Source of the DNA: a virus
Strand: one strand, 5' to 3'
DNA length: 62,915 bases
Virus record (IMG/VR): IMGVR_UViG_3300047480_000210
Span: 1 to 62,915 of that record
Notes under the pieces: model-generated
Databases searched by the model: none
Seen by the model: the letters and a program-made list of their open reading frames with translations, nothing else
Told to the model about the DNA's origin: nothing
Program-made: the position numbers and the translations under genes
In this document: piece after piece, positions 2,964 to 32,216 of the stretch
Layout: every line of letters starts with the position of its first letter
Position numbering within the stretch: the first letter of the stretch is position 1

Positions 2964-3037
2964 TGGTAGCCTGTCCAGGTAACGCTCCTGGGTCGCTCGA
3001 TTATCAGTCGAGTGCTCTACTATTGAGCTAACGGGCT
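2964..3037 (-). tRNA. tRNA-Ile(GAT)
   Basis: Loop CTGATAA with perfect stem CTCGA/TCGAG; acceptor AGCCCGT with one mismatch; T loop AGCGTTA is atypical. Confidence 0.82.
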
Positions 3038-3484
3038 AATTTTTCTGTTTCTGCCACGCCACGTTGGCGTTTGTGCGTGGCAATTTGGACAAAGGCATTC
3101 TAAATTAGATCTGCTATTGTTTTTATTATTCCCATCAATGTGGTCAAGTTCTAAGCTGATAGGCTTTCCCTGCCAACTATCTATACCACACTTATTGCAT
3201 TTACCATCTTGTTCTAATAGAACTCGCTTTCTGCGACCATCGTGTCCTAGCTGTTCAATATCACTTGATAATAATCGTTCTTTACAAGATTCTGCTCTTG
3301 ATACGGCGCCTTTACGCGACCGATTCTTTAATTCTTCGGGGCTAAAGGTAGAGAACACATCCTTTAGTTGTTTTGATCTTTTTTCTTTTTGGGTAGCTGT
3401 CCATACTCTACTATTGGCACATTTTCTACTACAGAAGGTGCCTGGTTTAGTATGTTCAACTCCGCATTTGGGGCATATTTTCAT
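3020..3484 (-). CDS. HNH homing endonuclease
   Basis: 154 aa. The N-terminal zinc motif (CPKCGVEH, FCSRKCANSR) matches the neighbouring endonuclease at 1953. The C-terminal HNH core is clear: CNKCGIDSWQG, LELDHIDGNNKNN, LECLCPNCHAQT (about residues 98-140). The start at 3484 has an AAGGATAT ribosome site. The stop overlaps the 5' end of tRNA-Ile(GAT) by about 18 bases, a position often seen for free-standing homing endonucleases near tRNA targets. Confidence 0.88.
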   Translation of the reverse strand: MKICPKCGVEHTKPGTFCSRKCANSRVWTATQKEKRSKQLKDVFSTFSPEELKNRSRKGAVSRAESCKERLLSSDIEQLGHDGRRKRVLLEQDGKCNKCGIDSWQGKPISLELDHIDGNNKNNSRSNLECLCPNCHAQTPTWRGRNRKISPLAQ

Positions 3485-5305: not shown

Positions 5306-5745
5306 GCTAATTTTGCTTTGATTTCCATGTAGAACTGATGATACTTTGCCATACGTGCAAGATCCTTTTCAGTTACACCTTTGAGACGTCGAACGTCTGT
5401 GTTGTGTCGCAGATCAGCCATCTTGACTCGCATCGCATCTTCACTAGCAAACACGCCGTCCTTGTACTCATCGTAAGTTTGGCCTGGTTGCTTGGTTAGG
5501 CAACGGATACCAGCAATAACTCTTTCAGAGATGCCTGCTTCACGTAGGTCCTTGTAAGTAACACTAGTGTCTTCGATGACGTCATGTCCGAGTGCCATGC
5601 ACATCAGCTCTTCGTCGTCTGACTTGAGATAGTGCATAACCTTCAGTGGGTGCAGAATGTAAGGGTTTCCGCCTTTGTCAAACTGCCCATGATGTGCATT
5701 AGTTGCAATCATCAACATCTTGTCAAGCATTTCGCCTTTTCTCAT
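5302..5745 (-). CDS. SpoT/MESH1-like HD hydrolase (possible alarmone hydrolase)
   Basis: 147 aa with the metal site of the RelA/SpoT hydrolase family: GNPYILHP (His32), the HDVIEDT block (His54-Asp55, Glu58-Asp59) and VKMADLRHN (Asp111, Asn115). In this family these residues bind Mn2+ and remove the 3' pyrophosphate of (p)ppGpp. The length matches single-domain hydrolases without a synthetase domain. It has its own sigma70 promoter (5771-5799) and an AAAGGAG ribosome site, suggesting early expression. Inference: lowers ppGpp or a related nucleotide during infection. Other HD phosphohydrolase substrates are possible. Confidence 0.8.
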   Translation of the reverse strand: MRKGEMLDKMLMIATNAHHGQFDKGGNPYILHPLKVMHYLKSDDEELMCMALGHDVIEDTSVTYKDLREAGISERVIAGIRCLTKQPGQTYDEYKDGVFASEDAMRVKMADLRHNTDVRRLKGVTEKDLARMAKYHQFYMEIKAKLA

Positions 5746-5770
5746 CTTGCACTCCTTTCTACTTAATTAC

Positions 5771-5799
5771 AGTATATGACAATAGTATCATCTTGTCAA
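5771..5799 (-). promoter_or_regulatory. sigma70-type promoter
   Basis: TTGACA, 17 bp, TATACT, upstream of the HD hydrolase gene. Confidence 0.8.
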
Positions 5800-5823
5800 T
5801 CACTGTTGCAAAAATACAACAGA

Positions 5824-6246
5824 TTATTTCTTGCTTTGCTCTGCTAGCTCTTTGTACCCTGCCCAACTTGGGTGGATAGCATCTGCTTGTAAGCGTTTAG
5901 TACTAATAATTGTATCACCAAAGTTTTTAGCAATAATTTCCACAATTTCATTGACGCTTGGCTTGCAAAACTTGTCATTGCATGGGGGCAAGATCCAATA
6001 TACGCGACCGGCTGTTACGTTTCGTCGCATAAACATTAGCTCGTCAAACGTCTTTACACCTTTGTGATCATTTGTGCCCAAACTGATAATGACGTTTTGG
6101 GCAGTAAGGTCCTTCTTTTCTTTGACGATGTAATGCTTGTTCCATTGCCAAGAGTTCCATCCACCTTTACTGTAGCTAACACATTCTTGTCGAACATTTG
6201 CTGTTCCAACTGCAATGCTGTCACCAATAATTAAACACTCTAACAT
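5824..6246 (-). CDS. SGNH/GDSL-family hydrolase
   Basis: Start 6246 chosen for its GGAGA ribosome site. The 140-aa product shows the SGNH blocks: IGDSIAVG (nucleophile Ser at about residue 9), ISLGTND (about residue 69) and DAIHPSWAGY (Asp-x-x-His near residue 125). Such enzymes deacylate or de-esterify lipids, sugars or peptidoglycan substituents; no signal peptide is seen, so it probably acts in the cytoplasm or in the virion. A dyad overlaps its promoter. Confidence 0.8.
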   Translation of the reverse strand: MLECLIIGDSIAVGTANVRQECVSYSKGGWNSWQWNKHYIVKEKKDLTAQNVIISLGTNDHKGVKTFDELMFMRRNVTAGRVYWILPPCNDKFCKPSVNEIVEIIAKNFGDTIISTKRLQADAIHPSWAGYKELAEQSKK

Positions 6247-6260
6247 AGTATCTCCAAAAG

Positions 6261-6294
6261 AAAAGCGATTACTGCTATTATACAATAATCGCTT
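6261..6294. promoter_or_regulatory. inverted repeat over the promoter -10 region
   Basis: AAAGCGATTA (6261-6270) and TAATCGCTTT (6285-6294) flank the TATAAT box of the SGNH promoter: a candidate repressor operator. Confidence 0.5.
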
Positions 6295-6305
6295 TGTGTT
6301 GTCAA
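6277..6305 (-). promoter_or_regulatory. sigma70-type promoter
   Basis: TTGACA, 17 bp, TATAAT; reads into the SGNH hydrolase gene. Confidence 0.85.
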
Positions 6306-6310
6306 CCTGT

Positions 6311-6427
6311 TTAACTGTTTAGGACCTTAGCAACCGAATTCATAACACTGGCAATACGTCCAATGTCGCGAAGGTTCTCTACTGTGTAGCCTTCAGTCTT
6401 CAATGTGTCATAGTGCGCCTTACTCAT
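6311..6427 (-). pseudogene. orphan 3' end of a second ahpD copy
   Basis: A 38-codon frame, MSKAHYDTLKTEGYTV... ending AKVLNS, matches the last 36 residues of the intact AhpD at 9133-9639 in 32 of 36 positions but differs at 36 of 108 nucleotides, mostly silent. It lacks the Cys pair, so it cannot be an active AhpD. Its ATG overlaps the stop of the ATPase gene (ATGA), so it may still be translated. It reads as the displaced end of ahpD after insertion of the HNH-ATPase cassette. Confidence 0.75.
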
Positions 6428-8352
6428 AAAACTTTGTATGTATAGGCACCCTTGTCGTGGCCTGTGTAAAAACGACTATTCTTAAAAACAGGACGACCTG
6501 TATTATCAATAGCGTGAATAACATGTTCTACACGGGGGAACGCATTCATATTGTTTTTAATATAAAGGAGCCATCCTTTAGATTTTTTAACCCAGTGTGC
6601 CTTTACTAACTTACCAACAGTATGGTTCTTAAAAGCATGGCGGGCATAGTTATCTGTAGTATATGATCTATCCTGACGAATCTCCCAATCCTTACTGTCT
6701 GTGCTAAAAGGCGTAAAGCCTTGTGTAATAACAAAATTACAGATTTCTTCTTGATTATCGTGGATTTTCTTATATACTGAGGTAGGAACATTAATAAGCA
6801 TGTCTGCTTCAGTGCTGATATAACGCTCGCTATCGTCAATTACTTCACTAGCACTTCGAGTACTAGTGCCGTTAAGTATCCCAAGTTTCTTTTGGATTGC
6901 CGCTTTAGTAATTGGGCGACTACCCATTACCCAATCTACAATTTGTGTAGAGGTCATTGAGCCCACTGTATTCAAGTGAGATATAAACATTCCAATTTGA
7001 TCCTTGTAGTTCTCAATGTCTTGTTTTATATCATCAGTGGTCCACATTACATTTTTCTTCAAGGCAGGTCGGATACCAGTACAACGCATAGCCTGGATTG
7101 CCGTTGTAATGTTTTCCCGTCCAGGGCCATAGTATGCTGTAAAATTACAATAGAATCCAAATTCTAGACTAGTTTGATCGTACCAGTGTTCGCACTCTAC
7201 AGTAATACTCTTACCTGTCATTAGTTTGCTAATAATAACAATGGCTTTTAATTCATCGCGATCCCATCCGTGGGCAATGGCGGTAAGTTTTTCTGAGATA
7301 GTTAGATCTTTGGCGTGTCCGTTATGGACGATAATAATAACCTCTGAGGAATGATTTAATTGATTAAAATCTTCGTCATCCCATAGAGATACTGTCCTGT
7401 TTTTATTTTGGAATGCTCTAGTAAGCATTTCAGCAACTTTAAGATGTCCAGAACGCATACGCCCAAACACCACATTGCCAATTTGTACCAAAGACTTGGT
7501 CTGCGAATCATCACCAATAGATTTTTGATTATTGATCAAAGATTCTACTTGGTCCACAACAATCTTGATGTTGGTAGTATTTCGTAAATTGGCTTTCTTT
7601 GTATAGCAATCTCCGCTAAAATTATTTTCTATAGCAAGTACAGGTTCAATAAAATTAGGGATATTCAAACCTTTATAATCTGGATGATTTGGGATTTGAT
7701 AAATTTGCTCTTTTGTTAGGTAGCCCAGATCTGAACTGTACTTACCGTGAATAAGGATGTGGCTCAGCAAGGTAGCACTAACTGAGACCTTACTAATGTT
7801 ATGTTTATTATGTACCAATAGATTACCTAAAGCGGTATCGCACTGGCTTGTTTCTGTTAGTTCGTGGAACTCTTCACCTTCGTCCATGATTATAAGAATT
7901 CGTGGAGAGGGTTTATTAAATTTTTTGGCTGTTTTTTCTGCGTCAGCAACGATCGCATCAATGCGATTGGTACGATTAGCATTAGTCATATTGATAAAAA
8001 TATCACCTTTTACCATATAAGCAGACTTATCTGTCGTGCTTTTAACTTGACGACCAATTTCTTTACCCCAGTCAATAGCACGATCCAAAATTTGGGTCAT
8101 CGCTCCTGTAAGATTTGTAGTACTAATAATTACATTATCAACTAGATTATCATCTAGAGCCTGGTCTGCTAGCCAGAATTTGAAGAAAGTTTTACCAGAT
8201 TGAGTATCTGCCAAAGCGTAAATTGGTAATTTATTTTGAATACAATACTTGAAATTTGGCCAATTATTAATGACCCTATTTCTTTGTAGATTGATCAAAT
8301 CGCCAGCAGGGGTATTACGGCGTTTTTGGAAATCTTTAAGAATTTTGGACAT
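6424..8352 (-). CDS. SF2-like helicase/ATPase of a probable mobile cassette
   Basis: 642 aa. Walker A ADTQSGKT at about residues 48-55, Walker B ILIIMDEGEEFHE near 155, an SAT motif (SVSATL) near 194 and a late QAMRCTGI block resembling motif VI place it with superfamily 2 or Z1-type ATPases. The C-terminal about 170 residues match no family I recognise. It has its own sigma70 promoter (8385-8413). It lies between the HNH gene and an orphan ahpD 3' end, so it is probably part of the same inserted unit. It could act in recombination, restriction or defence. Confidence 0.7.
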   Translation of the reverse strand: MSKILKDFQKRRNTPAGDLINLQRNRVINNWPNFKYCIQNKLPIYALADTQSGKTFFKFWLADQALDDNLVDNVIISTTNLTGAMTQILDRAIDWGKEIGRQVKSTTDKSAYMVKGDIFINMTNANRTNRIDAIVADAEKTAKKFNKPSPRILIIMDEGEEFHELTETSQCDTALGNLLVHNKHNISKVSVSATLLSHILIHGKYSSDLGYLTKEQIYQIPNHPDYKGLNIPNFIEPVLAIENNFSGDCYTKKANLRNTTNIKIVVDQVESLINNQKSIGDDSQTKSLVQIGNVVFGRMRSGHLKVAEMLTRAFQNKNRTVSLWDDEDFNQLNHSSEVIIIVHNGHAKDLTISEKLTAIAHGWDRDELKAIVIISKLMTGKSITVECEHWYDQTSLEFGFYCNFTAYYGPGRENITTAIQAMRCTGIRPALKKNVMWTTDDIKQDIENYKDQIGMFISHLNTVGSMTSTQIVDWVMGSRPITKAAIQKKLGILNGTSTRSASEVIDDSERYISTEADMLINVPTSVYKKIHDNQEEICNFVITQGFTPFSTDSKDWEIRQDRSYTTDNYARHAFKNHTVGKLVKAHWVKKSKGWLLYIKNNMNAFPRVEHVIHAIDNTGRPVFKNSRFYTGHDKGAYTYKVL

Positions 8353-8384
8353 AACTCAACTTTCTGTGTGTTTGTATAAGTTAT

Positions 8385-8413
8385 ATTATACAACCATTTT
8401 ATCAGAAAGTCAA
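8385..8413 (-). promoter_or_regulatory. sigma70-type promoter
   Basis: TTGACT, 17 bp, TATAAT; drives the cassette ATPase. Confidence 0.85.
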
Positions 8414-8431
8414 GATTTATTTTACCAAAAG

Positions 8432-9121
8432 TTATTCTTTGGATTTACAGTTGTTTCCGTGCCAACGATTGAACATTCCAGAACTAACTGTCTTGCTACA
8501 ATGCGGGCAAGATTTTTTGATTTGGCTTGGGTGTGTCCCGTTTGCCAGTTGATTCTTTACGGACTGTCCGCCCAAAAAGTTATGACTGCCTTCTGCTACT
8601 CGTTTTTGGTTAGTTTTACGAGATACTTCTCCGCCCAAAAACGGATGAGTTCCATTCTTGACTTTTACCAACTCTTTTTCACGAGCCCAATCTTTGTCCA
8701 AAAAGGTATGGTTGCCTTCTGCTATTCGTTTTAGATTTCGCTGTGATGCTTTGTCACTATCTTGCCAGTGATGCTCGCCTGCTTCTACCAAACGCTGTTG
8801 TGTTCGCTTTTGTATCTTACCGCCCAAGAAGTTATGTGTGCCGTTCTCAACTGCTTCTAATGCCGCCATTCTTGACAGATTAGATTTTTCTTCCGGGCTT
8901 ATTTCTAATGCTCCAGAAATCAACAAACAAGCATACCAGTCTCCTTGACTGTAGTGTATGTCGTAGTGTTCCTGGATAGTGACCGCTTTTAAGTTTGACG
9001 GATCATTGTTAGTATGATCCCCGTCAATGTGATGGATTTCGTAAGATCGTCCATCAGCATCAACGGGAATTTTACCGTAGTGCTTTTGATATATGTTTCT
9101 ATAAGATCTATCTCGTCTCAT
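8432..9121 (-). CDS. HNH homing endonuclease with repeated DNA-binding modules
   Basis: Start taken at ATG 9121 (MRRDRSYRN), exactly 5 bases after a late promoter. The N-terminal HNH region has YEIHHIDGDHTNNDPSNL (about residues 27-45). Then several NUMOD3-like repeats (NGTHNFLGG, EGNHTFLD, NGTHPFLGG, EGSHNFLGG) and a C-terminal zinc motif CPHCSKTV...C that is also present in the GIY-YIG protein at 10214. The gene abuts the intact ahpD stop. About 229 aa. Confidence 0.88.
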   Translation of the reverse strand: MRRDRSYRNIYQKHYGKIPVDADGRSYEIHHIDGDHTNNDPSNLKAVTIQEHYDIHYSQGDWYACLLISGALEISPEEKSNLSRMAALEAVENGTHNFLGGKIQKRTQQRLVEAGEHHWQDSDKASQRNLKRIAEGNHTFLDKDWAREKELVKVKNGTHPFLGGEVSRKTNQKRVAEGSHNFLGGQSVKNQLANGTHPSQIKKSCPHCSKTVSSGMFNRWHGNNCKSKE

Positions 9122-9126
9122 AGAAA

Positions 9127-9134
9127 TATTTATC
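9127..9134 (-). promoter_or_regulatory. late promoter GATAAATA, 5 bp before an ATG
   Basis: By T4 rules the start site falls on the A of the HNH start codon, giving a leaderless mRNA. Confidence 0.7.
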
Positions 9135-9639
9135 AACTATTCAGCACCTTCGCTACACTATTCATTACTGCCGCGATTCTACCTATGTCTCGTAGTTGCT
9201 CTACAGTATAGCCCAATGTCTTCAAACCATCGTAATGGGCTTTCACGCAGAACTCGCATTTTCCCACAATACTAGCGGCAAGACTGAACGCTTCAAAGTT
9301 GGCCTTAGTAGTTCCGCCATGACTTGCAATTGCATTCATACGTAACTGTGCTGGCAACCCTTTTAGCTGTTCATCATTAGCCATTTCAACGAATGGGTAC
9401 CACACATTGTTAGTCGCCATTATTGACGCGGCCGTCATCGCAGGTTCGGCATATACTGGATTGTCCGAAAGCATAATGCCCAACAACTTACCATTTCCAG
9501 TTGCCGCCAGTGCCGCCACGGCACACCCCATTGCTACATCAGCATCAAGAGTGCTACGCAATAACACCGAATCAATGTTTAACCTTGTATCTTTGGCATA
9601 ATCTGGTAATGCCGGTTTAACTACTTCAATAAAACTCAT
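9133..9639 (-). CDS. ahpD: AhpD-like carboxymuconolactone-decarboxylase-family protein
   Basis: 168 aa. The redox motif CEFC...H (Cys128, Cys131, His135) matches the active site of AhpD (Cys-x-x-Cys plus His), which in mycobacteria reduces AhpC. The rest is the all-helical CMD fold with Ala-rich helices, of normal length for AhpD. It is in the same direction as, and near, ahpC (10922-11461), so the pair could form a peroxide-detoxifying system. The last 36 codons have a recoded second copy at 6311-6427. Another CMD-family activity is possible. Confidence 0.82.
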   Translation of the reverse strand: MSFIEVVKPALPDYAKDTRLNIDSVLLRSTLDADVAMGCAVAALAATGNGKLLGIMLSDNPVYAEPAMTAASIMATNNVWYPFVEMANDEQLKGLPAQLRMNAIASHGGTTKANFEAFSLAASIVGKCEFCVKAHYDGLKTLGYTVEQLRDIGRIAAVMNSVAKVLNS

Positions 9640-9651
9640 TTTGTTTCTCCT

Positions 9652-9993
9652 TTATACATTTCCTAATCCAATTCTACTATAACCCAACTTTGATTTAATC
9701 TCTTTACGGCTTTCTTTATCTACTGGGCGAATCTCTGGATACTTGCGTGGCTTGTTGGGCCATCCTCTTGGATCTACTGTTTCACCAGTTAGCACATACC
9801 GAAAGTCTGGATCATAAACCATATTGCCAGAACTCTTGGGCACAACCTTACCATCCTTATGAACAAAGATGACGCCTCGTTGCATACACCAACTCCAGCC
9901 TTTGTCTGTCATTACATTGCCGTTGACTGTGCCAACATACTTGACTACATTGCCTTTGTGCATTTCTCTAACGGCTTCGTGATAGTCAATCAT
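9652..9993 (-). CDS. hypothetical protein (113 aa)
   Basis: Begins MIDYHEAVREMHKGNVVKYV and then has WSWCMQRGVIFVHKDGKV, recalling small phage proteins built around a short beta-rich domain. The start overlaps the stop of the upstream gene by ATGA, indicating translational coupling in the ahpC-ahpD region. No catalytic motif seen. Confidence 0.7.
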   Translation of the reverse strand: MIDYHEAVREMHKGNVVKYVGTVNGNVMTDKGWSWCMQRGVIFVHKDGKVVPKSSGNMVYDPDFRYVLTGETVDPRGWPNKPRKYPEIRPVDKESRKEIKSKLGYSRIGLGNV

Positions 9994-10217
9994 TCTTCTA
10001 CTCCGAAATGTTGTTTAATCTCGTCAATACATTGCGACCCACCATTCAACCAAGTATCAACACTTTCAGGAACAGGATCGCTGATAACTTGCTCACAACA
10101 ACCAATACATTCTTTCACAATCAACTCGGCGAACTTTTCTAACTTAGTTGGAATACCTTCTGGATTGTATGTAGGCAATCCAGCCTCGTGAGCAAGTTCT
10201 CTAATTCGTTCGTTCAT
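9990..10217 (-). CDS. small conserved phage-type protein (75 aa)
   Basis: MNERIRELAHEAGLPTY... with KFAELIVKECIGCCE and the end IKQHFGVE, a pattern met in many phage small proteins of unknown role. Coupled by ATGA overlaps to genes on both sides. Cys-Cys near the middle could be a metal or redox site; no function known to me. Confidence 0.75.
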   Translation of the reverse strand: MNERIRELAHEAGLPTYNPEGIPTKLEKFAELIVKECIGCCEQVISDPVPESVDTWLNGGSQCIDEIKQHFGVEE

Positions 10218-10885
10218 TTCGTTTCCTTACAGTTATCAAAGTGCCACCTTGTCATAGAACCGCCACTACCTACTTTACCGCAATGAGGACAAGTAAAAGT
10301 TTCCTTCTTACCCTGATTAGCCTGGCGTAGTTTTTCTTTAGTTTCCTCGCTTGGTGTTTTACCATAACTTGGATTATTACTACCTAACTTTGCATGCCTA
10401 ATCTTGTCTCTTGTCTGCTCTGTGAATGGTTTGCGTTTCTTCCCTAACTTTGCTTCACTTTGCTTCTTACGAGTTTCCTCTGATGCTACTTTGCCTCTAT
10501 TAGGACTTGGCTTGCCTCTATTAGGATGAACCTTTTTGATAGACTCGCTTTGTTTCTTACGAGTGTCCTCTGATACTTTTACACCTGTTCTGGTAAACTT
10601 ACCATCGCCGTTATGTTGGTTAAAACTCATTGGATTGTGTTTAGCATCTAATGACTCCAACAAAGTAGTTTCCAGTTTAATCATCTCTTCTGGGCTACCA
10701 GTTTTGATGACTTCTCGTTTCCACTCTGTTGGATTTTGTTTTATCAACGGTTTAATAAGTTGGCTTGAACTAATGTAGCCATCTTGGGGATGACATCCTT
10801 TAGCGGTTCTACAACCAATGTACCACTTGCCCGTAGGCAAGTGTGTCCATTTATAAACGAATGATGTATGAGTGATAGTTTCCAT
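10214..10885 (-). CDS. GIY-YIG homing endonuclease
   Basis: Start at ATG 10885, 5 bases after a late promoter. The N-terminal catalytic module has FVYKWTHLPTGKWYIGC (GIY-YIG signature as VYK...WYIG). Repeated modules SEDTRKKQSE, SEETRKKQSE, SEETKEKLRQ follow (NUMOD3-like), then a C-terminal zinc motif TCPHCGKVGSGG...C. About 223 aa. Inserted between ahpC and the ahpD-side genes. Confidence 0.88.
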   Translation of the reverse strand: METITHTSFVYKWTHLPTGKWYIGCRTAKGCHPQDGYISSSQLIKPLIKQNPTEWKREVIKTGSPEEMIKLETTLLESLDAKHNPMSFNQHNGDGKFTRTGVKVSEDTRKKQSESIKKVHPNRGKPSPNRGKVASEETRKKQSEAKLGKKRKPFTEQTRDKIRHAKLGSNNPSYGKTPSEETKEKLRQANQGKKETFTCPHCGKVGSGGSMTRWHFDNCKETK

Positions 10886-10890
10886 ACAAG

Positions 10891-10898
10891 TATTTATC
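10891..10898 (-). promoter_or_regulatory. late promoter GATAAATA, 5 bp before an ATG
   Basis: Predicted leaderless transcript for the GIY-YIG endonuclease. Confidence 0.7.
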
Positions 10899-10921
10899 AC
10901 TCATTACATTATTCTGTGCCA

Positions 10922-11461
10922 TTATAGTGTCTCCCCACCCACAGTACGGTTACAAGCACACAGTTCACCTGTTTGCAATGCGTCCAATACACGAAGTGTT
11001 TCTTCTGGGCTACGACCAACATTCAAGTTGTTGACTGTAACGTGCTGGATAACGTTTTCCGGGTCAATAATAAATGTTGCACGAAGTGCGGCGCCTGCAG
11101 GTGCGTAGAATACACCCAATTGCTCAATCAAGCTCAACTCGCCACGTTGTGTGTCGGCGAACTGGTGGTGTGTAATCTTGCGTAGGTCATCATGGCTCTT
11201 TTGCCATGCTACCTTGCAGAACTCGTTGTCTGTGCTACCTGTTAGCAATACTGCATCACGGTCAGCAAAGTCTTGTGCCAACTTATCATAAGCCACAATT
11301 TCTGTAGGGCATACAAATGTAAAGTCTTTTGGATAGTAAACGATTATTTTCCACTTGCCTTCGAAGCTGTTTTCTGTGATTGTATAGAACGCATCCTCTG
11401 GCTGTCCTGGCTTCACTCCTGTGACTGCGAACGGTGCTAATTTATCTCCAACTGTTTTCAT
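10922..11461 (-). CDS. ahpC: AhpC-type 2-Cys peroxiredoxin
   Basis: 179 aa, standard length. The peroxidatic Cys51 is in FTFVCPTEI; resolving Cys168 is in ELCACNRTVGGETL; the DPxxVIQH region (IIDPENVIQHVTV) and the GRSPEETLRVLDALQTG helix are typical. It reduces H2O2 and organic peroxides in the cytoplasm, regenerated by AhpF or, with AhpD, by a thioredoxin-like route. It has a sigma70 promoter at 11539-11567, so it is probably early. A cellular-type gene that is uncommon in phages. Confidence 0.93.
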   Translation of the reverse strand: MKTVGDKLAPFAVTGVKPGQPEDAFYTITENSFEGKWKIIVYYPKDFTFVCPTEIVAYDKLAQDFADRDAVLLTGSTDNEFCKVAWQKSHDDLRKITHHQFADTQRGELSLIEQLGVFYAPAGAALRATFIIDPENVIQHVTVNNLNVGRSPEETLRVLDALQTGELCACNRTVGGETL

Positions 11462-11538
11462 GCTTATTTCTCCTTGTTAAGCGAGTGCGCTCTGATCTTT
11501 CATAAGCATCAGAGCTCAGTGTTTATACTGATAGTTCA

Positions 11539-11567
11539 AGTATAACAGTATATATCATAGAAATCAA
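11539..11567 (-). promoter_or_regulatory. sigma70-type promoter
   Basis: TTGATT, 17 bp, TATACT; drives ahpC. Confidence 0.7.
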
Positions 11568-11619
11568 CTATTATTTCATGGTTTTCCATAATATCTTTTT
11601 ATGATGATTATAGGAGAAA

Positions 11620-12258
11620 TCAATGGTAGCCAAGGGCGGCCAGTCGTGACACTAACTCGTCCCATGGGATTTGTTCGGCTATTTCGGTTGTGATGATGAT
11701 GCGGTTTTCGTTACAGTCGGGTGCTTGCATGCGATGGGCTATTTCGGTGCGGTTCCATCCTGCACCCGGATTGATTACCTTACACACGGAATCGGTTCCC
11801 CAATCCACAATAGTAGACTTGTAACTGTATGCAGTATGTTCGCGGCCATTGCGTAATTCAGTAAAGGCACGTTCTTCGATCTTGTCGCTGTCAACACCAT
11901 CGTCCCACCATTCTAATTGTGTAGGGCTACATCCAAAGTAGGGTATGTTAAAACGTGCCACCATTGGAGTCCCGCGCACAAAGGCATCAATGTGAGCGTT
12001 CAATGGACATTGGTTCTTGTGGCCAATAAATCCAGCAAAGCGACGGATCTTTAACCCAAGGTCGGCAAAGTGTTGTTCTACTGCGGATCGTTGTGGCCAA
12101 TCAGCAAAAGCAGTCTGTGGCAAATCAACACGATCAAAAGCGCCTTTGATAATGTTTAATGCAGGTGTTAAACGTGGTACTATGTTTTGCTGGACCCATT
12201 CTCGATCTGATTCTGTAGGTTCAAAGTCAGGTGTTGGCACATTGTAGATTTTGCTCAT
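11620..12258 (-). CDS. aspartyl/asparaginyl-hydroxylase-like 2OG oxygenase
   Basis: The start at 12258 (MSKIYNVP) follows a late promoter by 4 bases; the longer open frame upstream is not used. The HxD iron motif is in NAHIDAF (His89, Asp91) followed by RFNIPYFGC, a layout shared with the protein at 24185. A distal His and Arg near the C-terminus (NRTEIAHRM) would complete the site. About 212 aa. The substrate is unknown; such proteins are common in T4-like marine phages. Confidence 0.6.
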   Translation of the reverse strand: MSKIYNVPTPDFEPTESDREWVQQNIVPRLTPALNIIKGAFDRVDLPQTAFADWPQRSAVEQHFADLGLKIRRFAGFIGHKNQCPLNAHIDAFVRGTPMVARFNIPYFGCSPTQLEWWDDGVDSDKIEERAFTELRNGREHTAYSYKSTIVDWGTDSVCKVINPGAGWNRTEIAHRMQAPDCNENRIIITTEIAEQIPWDELVSRLAALGYH

Positions 12259-22798: not shown

Positions 22799-22836
22799 CA
22801 AGTTTTGTAATGTAGTTTAGGCTGATGTCTTGTTAA

Positions 22837-22905
22837 ACTATAGCAGGATTCGAACCTGCCCACCCGGCCGGTAAAGACCAGTATGCTTTCCGCTACATCA
22901 TATGG
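22837..22905 (-). tRNA. degenerate tRNA-like sequence
   Basis: Good T arm GCAGG/CCTGC and D-arm-like block, anticodon-like stem CTGG/CCGG with loop TCTTTA, but no acceptor pairing and no CCA. Confidence 0.4.
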
Positions 22906-23047
22906 ACTCCTCTGCGGTACGCTCGGCAAAGCGGTGCGCTGAGGGACAAGATACAGACTTCTGACGATTGCCGTCACCAGCCTGAACTACACTACAAAAT
23001 TTTAAAGAACTCTGCAACTACTCGATCATTTGTTGCTGTCTAAGTAT

Positions 23048-32141: not shown

Positions 32142-32216
32142 TGGTGCGATAGACGGGACTCGAACCCGCAATCTTGAGTTTTAGAGGCTCTTGCTATGCC
32201 ATTCAGCTTCTATCGC
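32142..32216 (-). tRNA. suppressor-type tRNA with CTA (amber-reading) anticodon
   Basis: Perfect acceptor GCGATAG/CTATCGC, D arm GCT...AGC, T arm GCGGG/CCCGT, A73, CCA. Position counting gives loop CTCTAAA, that is C32 U33 CUA A37 A38. Anticodon-stem pairs 27-43 and 31-39 are mismatched. It stands alone behind its own promoter. The amino acid cannot be read. Confidence 0.8.

Follow-up and report, generated by a model that had tools for sequence, protein, structure and literature searches.

The ahpD locus analyzed here lies on a virus contig of 62,915 bases (IMG/VR record IMGVR_UViG_3300047480_000210), and the term window refers to this whole stretch. Re-reading of the open reading frames and their translations confirmed the four elements of the original prediction, namely an intact ahpD, an HNH gene, an ATPase gene and an orphan copy of the ahpD 3' end. 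The following features were assigned:

9133..9639, minus strand: full-length hybrid ahpD, with codons 1-80 native (DNA identical to the relative L003) and a foreign 3' part (CEFC type)
9133..9261, minus strand: replacement 3' end of ahpD, foreign in origin, running from codon 127 (KCEFC motif) through the stop codon
8432..9121, minus strand: HNH homing-type endonuclease gene, with HNH_3 domain, repeated G.H.FLGG motifs and C-terminal zinc finger
8413..8431, minus strand: probable start of the cargo slot, ACTTTTGG, placed by junction comparison
8385..8413, minus strand: strong sigma70-type promoter of the ATPase passenger (TTGACT-17-TATAAT, 11/12)
6424..8352, minus strand: passenger DEAD/SF2-like ATPase of 642 aa, a rare family with a sub-threshold match to Pfam DEAD
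6311..6427, minus strand: displaced native ahpD 3' end (orphan), 36 codons plus stop, assigned by sequence comparison and tail tree
6277..6305, minus strand: promoter of the downstream GDSL gene (12/12), directly 3' of the orphan, assigned by promoter scan and comparison

An ahpC gene is located upstream of ahpD at 11461-10922, so that the locus represents an ahpC-ahpD pair with insertions. The window ahpD matches TIGR00777 with an E-value of 1.8e-32, which is under the family cut-off but covers almost the full length, and its product matches the AhpD structure 1gu9 in the PDB (E 5.4e-23). The gene is not split into two coding parts as is nrdA of Aeh1 by mobE; the upstream gene is full length and contains the CxxC motif. 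Its cysteines and the following histidine align with the motif CSHCLVAH of Mycobacterium tuberculosis AhpD in the PDB comparison. Since these residues are retained, the hybrid AhpD should still function, in line with the prediction that the supplied 3' end keeps the gene whole.

The HNH gene starts 11 bases past the ahpD stop codon. Its product matches Pfam HNH_3 above the cut-off (E 6.3e-11), PHROG 12324 'intron-like DNA endonuclease' (E 4.3e-41) and the PADLOC homing endonuclease entry HEase (E 1.8e-40), and DNA-binding repeats and a zinc finger can be read from its sequence. An intron-borne HNH gene was ruled out at this locus, as Rfam cmscan of window positions 5500-11700 detected no intron family and thus no group I intron.

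The orphan and the intact 3' end share 32/36 amino acids and 72/108 nucleotides (74/111 including the stop codon). Third positions are changed in 28/39 cases, first and second positions together in 15. An AhpD search of the whole window returned only two matching places, the intact gene and the orphan (E 3.5e-15 for the orphan), which indicates that the likeness of the orphan to ahpD is not due to chance. The orphan can be read as a 38-aa ORF whose ATG overlaps the ATPase stop codon (ATGA). The presence of an ATG ahead of the orphan in the window and in the related loci L086 and L089 suggests that a peptide may be translated.

Uninterrupted relatives and the displaced native end

A scan of viral contigs with the AhpD query yielded 80 loci, the majority without insert, and further scans with the HNH protein and a diverged AhpD raised the number of distinct ahpD loci to 133. 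All relatives are metagenome contigs; tblastn searches of phage GenBank records with AhpD and with the ATPase gave no match. The HNH gene occurs in seven of the 133 loci, in one of them (L025) in decayed form, and hence shows a presence/absence pattern at one site. Six loci combine the HNH gene with an orphan tail. An eighth locus, L213, contains a fused tail and an orphan without HNH.

The uninterrupted relatives sought on the basis of the original prediction were found, and their flanks match those of the window. L003 represents an empty site, in which an upstream flank like that of the window is followed by ahpD with its native tail and then by the same GDSL gene. Codons 1-80 of ahpD are identical in DNA between L003 and the window (240/240), and so is, by and large, the stretch immediately upstream. 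Over 1,197 aligned bp the overall identity is 94.7%; the mismatches lie after codon 80, where identity falls to 63-90% per 30 bases. The upstream conversion boundary of the window ahpD is located between codons 81 and 126. The tail of L003 is closer to the window orphan (92/111) than to the fused end of the window (77/111). In L003, L052 and L074 the intact native ahpD is followed by an intergenic region, a promoter and a GDSL gene like those 3' of the window orphan. Because these three relatives continue alike past the native stop codon, the upstream part of the window and its orphan together correspond to the uninterrupted layout, and the region 3' of the orphan appears to be the right-hand junction of the empty site. 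The insertion into ahpD and the displacement of its native end were thus correctly anticipated.

L087 harbors the bare unit: the HNH stop codon TAA is followed by one base and then by the orphan TTCTGTGTTAAAGC, and 819 bp separate the FC codon of the fused end from that of the orphan. The insertion point lies within the catalytic CxxC codons, as the native sequence TGTCACTTCTGTGTTAA corresponds to the L087 junction AATAACTTCTGTGTTAA; the site in native CHFC ahpD genes reads AARTGYCAYTTCTGTGTTAARGC. Several loci have an orphan with the same starting codons. In the window, and likewise in L086 and L089, ACTTTTGG or a close variant of it comes directly after the HNH gene. It may be a remnant of the native half-site ACTTCTGTG, which lies immediately 3' of HNH in L087. 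The unit consists of the foreign tail and the HNH gene, and the ATPase does not belong to its core.

Origin of the fused 3' end and the HNH module

Native tails in this lineage have the form KCHFCVKAHYxTLKxEGY, and all fused tails KCEFC..AHYxGLKx(M/L)GY. In a tree of the last 36 codons (108 columns only), all fused tails and four CEFC tails without HNH are located on one side of a branch with support of 100/97, and 7/7 orphans are placed among the native tails. A single clade of fused and orphan tails was rejected by the AU test (p-AU 0.0003). In an expanded tail tree the fused tails are nearest to a lineage with native CHFC...GLKKMGY tails (L199, L214, L221 and L239); the placement of the L213 orphan, which has a branch length of 10 and is probably in the wrong register, was disregarded. 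The fused 3' end is therefore of foreign origin, an ahpD tail of GLKxMGY type that stems from a different lineage and has a His-to-Glu change in the motif. The orphans do not group with a distant ahpD lineage, an outcome that would have spoken against the original prediction, but with the native phage gene. That prediction had further proposed a synonymously recoded C-terminus. The supplied tail is borne out, but not the synonymous rewriting of the local gene: given the proximity of the fused tails to the GLKxMGY lineage and the change from CHFC to CEFC, the apparent recoding reflects natural divergence of a foreign homologue.

Identity profiles between the HNH loci point to a shared module. 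Per 60 bases, identity between the window and L098 rises from 45-76% across the 5' portion of ahpD to 81-100% in the tail and HNH, and that between L093 and L097 rises from 66-91% to 93-100%. Between L213 and L093 identity climbs to 100% in the tail and drops past the gene end. These jumps at the tail and HNH indicate that the module has been copied into differing ahpD backgrounds. Because a single clade of HNH loci was not rejected on the 5' tree (p-AU 0.36, with long branches), the claim of different recipients is based on the identity profiles and the identity between the window and L003.

The fused 3' end carries CEFC in 7/7 HNH loci, and neither HNH nor an orphan occurs in any of the 107 CHFC loci. 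The Fisher test of this association gives p 5e-6, but the loci are related to each other and CEFC served as the seed of the second scan. The strict link between HNH and CEFC is the one observation indicating that the new 3' end probably blocks re-cutting. CEFC is also present in 18 loci without HNH and orphan, seven of which have native-type TLKxEGY tails, and it may be ancestral in some HNH-less lineages. Thus CEFC may have arisen without selection for resistance. HNH-less CEFC loci are expected where HNH was lost or where partial co-conversion passes on a resistant site, and recombination alone could also have produced them. The ahpD region is recombinogenic, and L036 looks chimeric.

Variable cargo and a probable second target gene

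The stretch between HNH and the orphan differs among the loci and is empty in L087. In the L029 group and L043 it is occupied by a small ORF containing the DNA word GGTGTGGCGGAAGGC, which is also found 3' of the decayed HNH gene in L025. L089 harbors a 373-aa ORF matching PHROG 2615, and L086 a remnant of this ORF with the same promoter. In L213 an ORF that by eye resembles a tail fibre is located where HNH would be. The kinds of cargo seen are hence the ATPase, the large PHROG 2615 ORF, a small GVAEG-repeat ORF and the tail-fibre-like ORF.

The cargo of the window is the ATPase gene with its own promoter, whose -10 region and leader are also present ahead of the related genes in L083 and L084. 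The motifs ADTQSGKT, MDEGE, SAT and QAMRCTGIR were recognized by eye. The match to Pfam DEAD (E 5.8e-5) is sub-threshold with 23.3 bits against a cut-off of 26, no match was obtained in PDB, PHROG or PADLOC, and an AlphaFold2 model built from three sequences was poor (pLDDT 44). Two distinct relatives were found in viral contigs, L083 (= L085) and L084, and none in a scan of bacterial genomes. No HNH gene is present in the fetched flanks of these relatives, and all HNH-bearing loci other than the window are without the ATPase. Since the two genes occur apart from each other, the unit does not include the ATPase, which is best regarded as a later passenger in the variable cargo slot. The ATPase had indeed been predicted to be a passenger, and it is one of several cargoes between HNH and the orphan. 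However, the distribution contradicts the proposal that an HNH-ATPase pair had entered as a 2.8-kb unit, and the same pair was not seen at the other ATPase copies within the flanks fetched for them.

A scan for repeated 3' ends covered 79 HNH loci. The sole clear case outside ahpD is L125, in which a 43% HNH relative follows a PHROG 16202 gene. The HNH reading frame continues without a break into another copy of the last 52 residues of that gene (61.5% identical, E 9e-19). In L327-L330 the same PHROG 16202 gene is uninterrupted and is followed by the same next gene as in L125. A distant HNH relative thus appears to have the same layout in a second, unrelated gene. Weak repeated-end matches in L130, L156 and L158 are of a kind that also occurs in shuffled pairs. 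In L084 the ATPase is located between a metallophosphoesterase gene and a copy of the last 13 codons of that gene (39 bp, 85%, E 1.6e-8); other relatives of the metallophosphoesterase gene were not followed by a copy of this kind in a motif scan. This single locus is suggestive of a link between the ATPase itself and replacement ends.

Proposed homing route and known systems

The arrangement is probably explained by homing, in which a free-standing HNH gene would target the active-site codons of ahpD and bring along a foreign, resistant 3' end. The HNH gene would invade ahpD at these codons (KC-H|FC-VKAHY), and the travelling block would comprise the foreign ahpD 3' end, its stop codon and the HNH ORF. 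The enzyme is predicted to cut the native CHFC site of a co-infecting phage genome, and repair off the donor would copy the block into the cut ahpD. This would turn the recipient gene into a hybrid in which Cys-x-x-Cys and the His after it are retained, and would strand its native 3' end as an orphan further downstream. The donor is proposed to be immune, because its native site is interrupted and because the CEFC site brought in departs from the native sequence where the insertion lies and would escape cutting. DNA between HNH and the orphan, flanked by homology on both sides, would be carried along, which would give rise to the cargo slot. Sequence comparison establishes the insertion with its empty site, the foreign source of the 3' end, the displaced native end, the sharing of the module among different ahpD backgrounds and the variability of the cargo, and from these the cutting, the immunity, the transfer by repair and the joint transfer of cargo are inferred.

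As an alternative, recombination between diverged phage ahpD genes might have produced the hybrids passively, with the nuclease sitting at the boundary and not driving the exchange. This is consistent with the mosaic structure of ahpD and its neighborhood (L036 and the CEFC hybrids L037, L064 and L171), and boundaries of genetic exchange in phages are known to carry nuclease genes (PMC10448857). However, the same HNH and the same fused tail are found in several ahpD backgrounds and always at the same codons, simple exchange leaves no orphan 3' end such as the displaced native end of the undecayed loci, and the layout recurs in the unrelated gene of L125. Passive exchange is therefore improbable, though it is a more serious candidate than the other two alternatives. 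A functional mobile unit of nuclease plus motor would fit the adjacent, co-oriented HNH and ATPase genes of the window and the position of the ATPase in L084, but it was rejected as very unlikely on the distribution of the two genes, and the ATPase has a separate promoter. Least credible of all is a tandem duplication of ahpD in which the second copy was mostly lost and genes were inserted between the copies. The direct order of the two 3'-end copies would agree with it, but the copies come from different lineages, as the rejection of their common clade shows, and the tail tree rules out in-place duplication for these loci. In addition, the orphan starts at constant codons, HNH abuts it in L087, and L003 displays an undisturbed site.

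The closest known elements to the proposed homing gene appear to be the mobile endonuclease ORFs (mORFs) with foreign C-termini in fungal mitochondria, which are described for atp6 of Allomyces (Paquin et al. 1994, as summarized in PMC3630166), for atp6, atp9, cox2 and nad3 of Glomus (PMC3630166) and for atp6 and cox2 of Phlebia (PMC4019555). As in these elements, the endonuclease ORF of the window comes directly after a hybrid gene whose 3' end is foreign and in frame. The displaced native 3' end likewise lies further downstream and is nearest to empty-site relatives, and the two 3' ends resemble each other in protein more than in DNA, where they have diverged. The window differs in that it derives from a double-stranded DNA phage, with an HNH enzyme and the catalytic codons of ahpD as target, and its loci have a variable cargo slot between the endonuclease and the displaced end.

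In T4-like phages, free-standing homing endonuclease genes (mobE, mobA and seg) are inherited at high frequency in mixed infections (PMC2988022) and share with the window a free-standing HNH-type gene beside or within a conserved gene. Unlike in the window, the T4-type insertions are intergenic or divide a gene into two parts that both function (mobE in Aeh1 nrdA, mobA in gene 60), and the portion of the account that was covered describes no replacement 3' end. PMC2988022 and PMC10448857 report phage homing genes in intergenic positions, within introns or inteins, or as insertions that split a gene. Intron- and intein-borne endonucleases likewise invade conserved codons of a functional gene without destroying it, but here there is neither an intron (Rfam) nor an intein, as HNH is a separate ORF past the stop codon, and the gene is saved by a foreign 3' copy. 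PHROG 12324 and the PADLOC HEase entry, which the window HNH protein matches, describe the protein alone without the replacement-end layout. No phage case with a replacement end was found in the literature, coverage of which was incomplete.

In this virus of bacteria, the HNH gene appears to be a selfish gene that jumped into a working ahpD. Besides introns or inteins and split genes, this would constitute a third route by which a homing gene can reside inside a phage gene and keep it alive, namely by bringing a foreign, probably uncuttable, replacement end. It is conceivable, if somewhat less than evenly probable, that the foreign 3' end plus HNH on one side and the displaced native 3' end on the other form a mobile cargo cassette of phages, and that 3'-end replacement is general for this HNH family (ahpD and L125) and perhaps extends to the ATPase (L084). 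In that case any gene landing between the nuclease and the orphan could be spread by homing while the host gene stays unbroken, which bears on the movement of auxiliary genes among uncultured phages. A natural series is present, consisting of an empty site, a bare unit, a decayed unit, units with various cargo and nuclease-less alleles of the resistant type, and it would allow direct tests of the homing cycle, immunity and cargo transfer.

Repeated gene ends in other contigs

In the metagenomic viral contig L125 (3413-4897), an HNH relative (43%) lies behind a PHROG 16202 gene, and a second copy of the C-terminus of this gene is read in frame from the HNH relative. Judged from the sequence, this is the ahpD-HNH layout repeated, with the PHROG 16202 gene as a putative second target. 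In L084 (3039-5705), which harbors no HNH gene in its fetched flanks, a metallophosphoesterase gene is followed by an ATPase relative and then by a repeat of the last codons of the metallophosphoesterase gene (39 bp, 85%). The order in L213 (3197-4540) is the fused CEFC tail, a large tail-fibre-like ORF in the place of HNH, and the orphan native ahpD end.

The 15-base word GGTGTGGCGGAAGGC (peptide GVAEG) is repeatedly present in cargo ORFs 3' of HNH, but absent from the window.

Positions of the word or its cargo ORF
L025: 3942-4145
L043: 6457-6648
L029: 7264-7278

Recombination around ahpD

Because the genes between ahpC and ahpD in L036 (2723-5060) are identical to those of the window at the protein level, whereas its ahpD appears chimeric, this region probably recombines often.

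Further nuclease-like and tRNA genes of the window

10214-10900 (-): second homing-type gene, GIY-YIG/NUMOD3, immediately 3' of ahpC
1953-2609 and 3020-3484 (-): two nuclease-like ORFs within a dense tRNA cluster
32142-32216 (-): predicted tRNA, anticodon CTA (amber)
22834-22908: predicted tRNA, four-base anticodon TTAC

The C-terminal zinc finger of the GIY-YIG/NUMOD3 protein shares 57% identity with that of the HNH protein. The nuclease-like ORFs have similar Cys-rich N-termini, and the second contains an HNH match. Both listed tRNAs were predicted by ARAGORN; the 63 kb harbor 37 tRNA genes.
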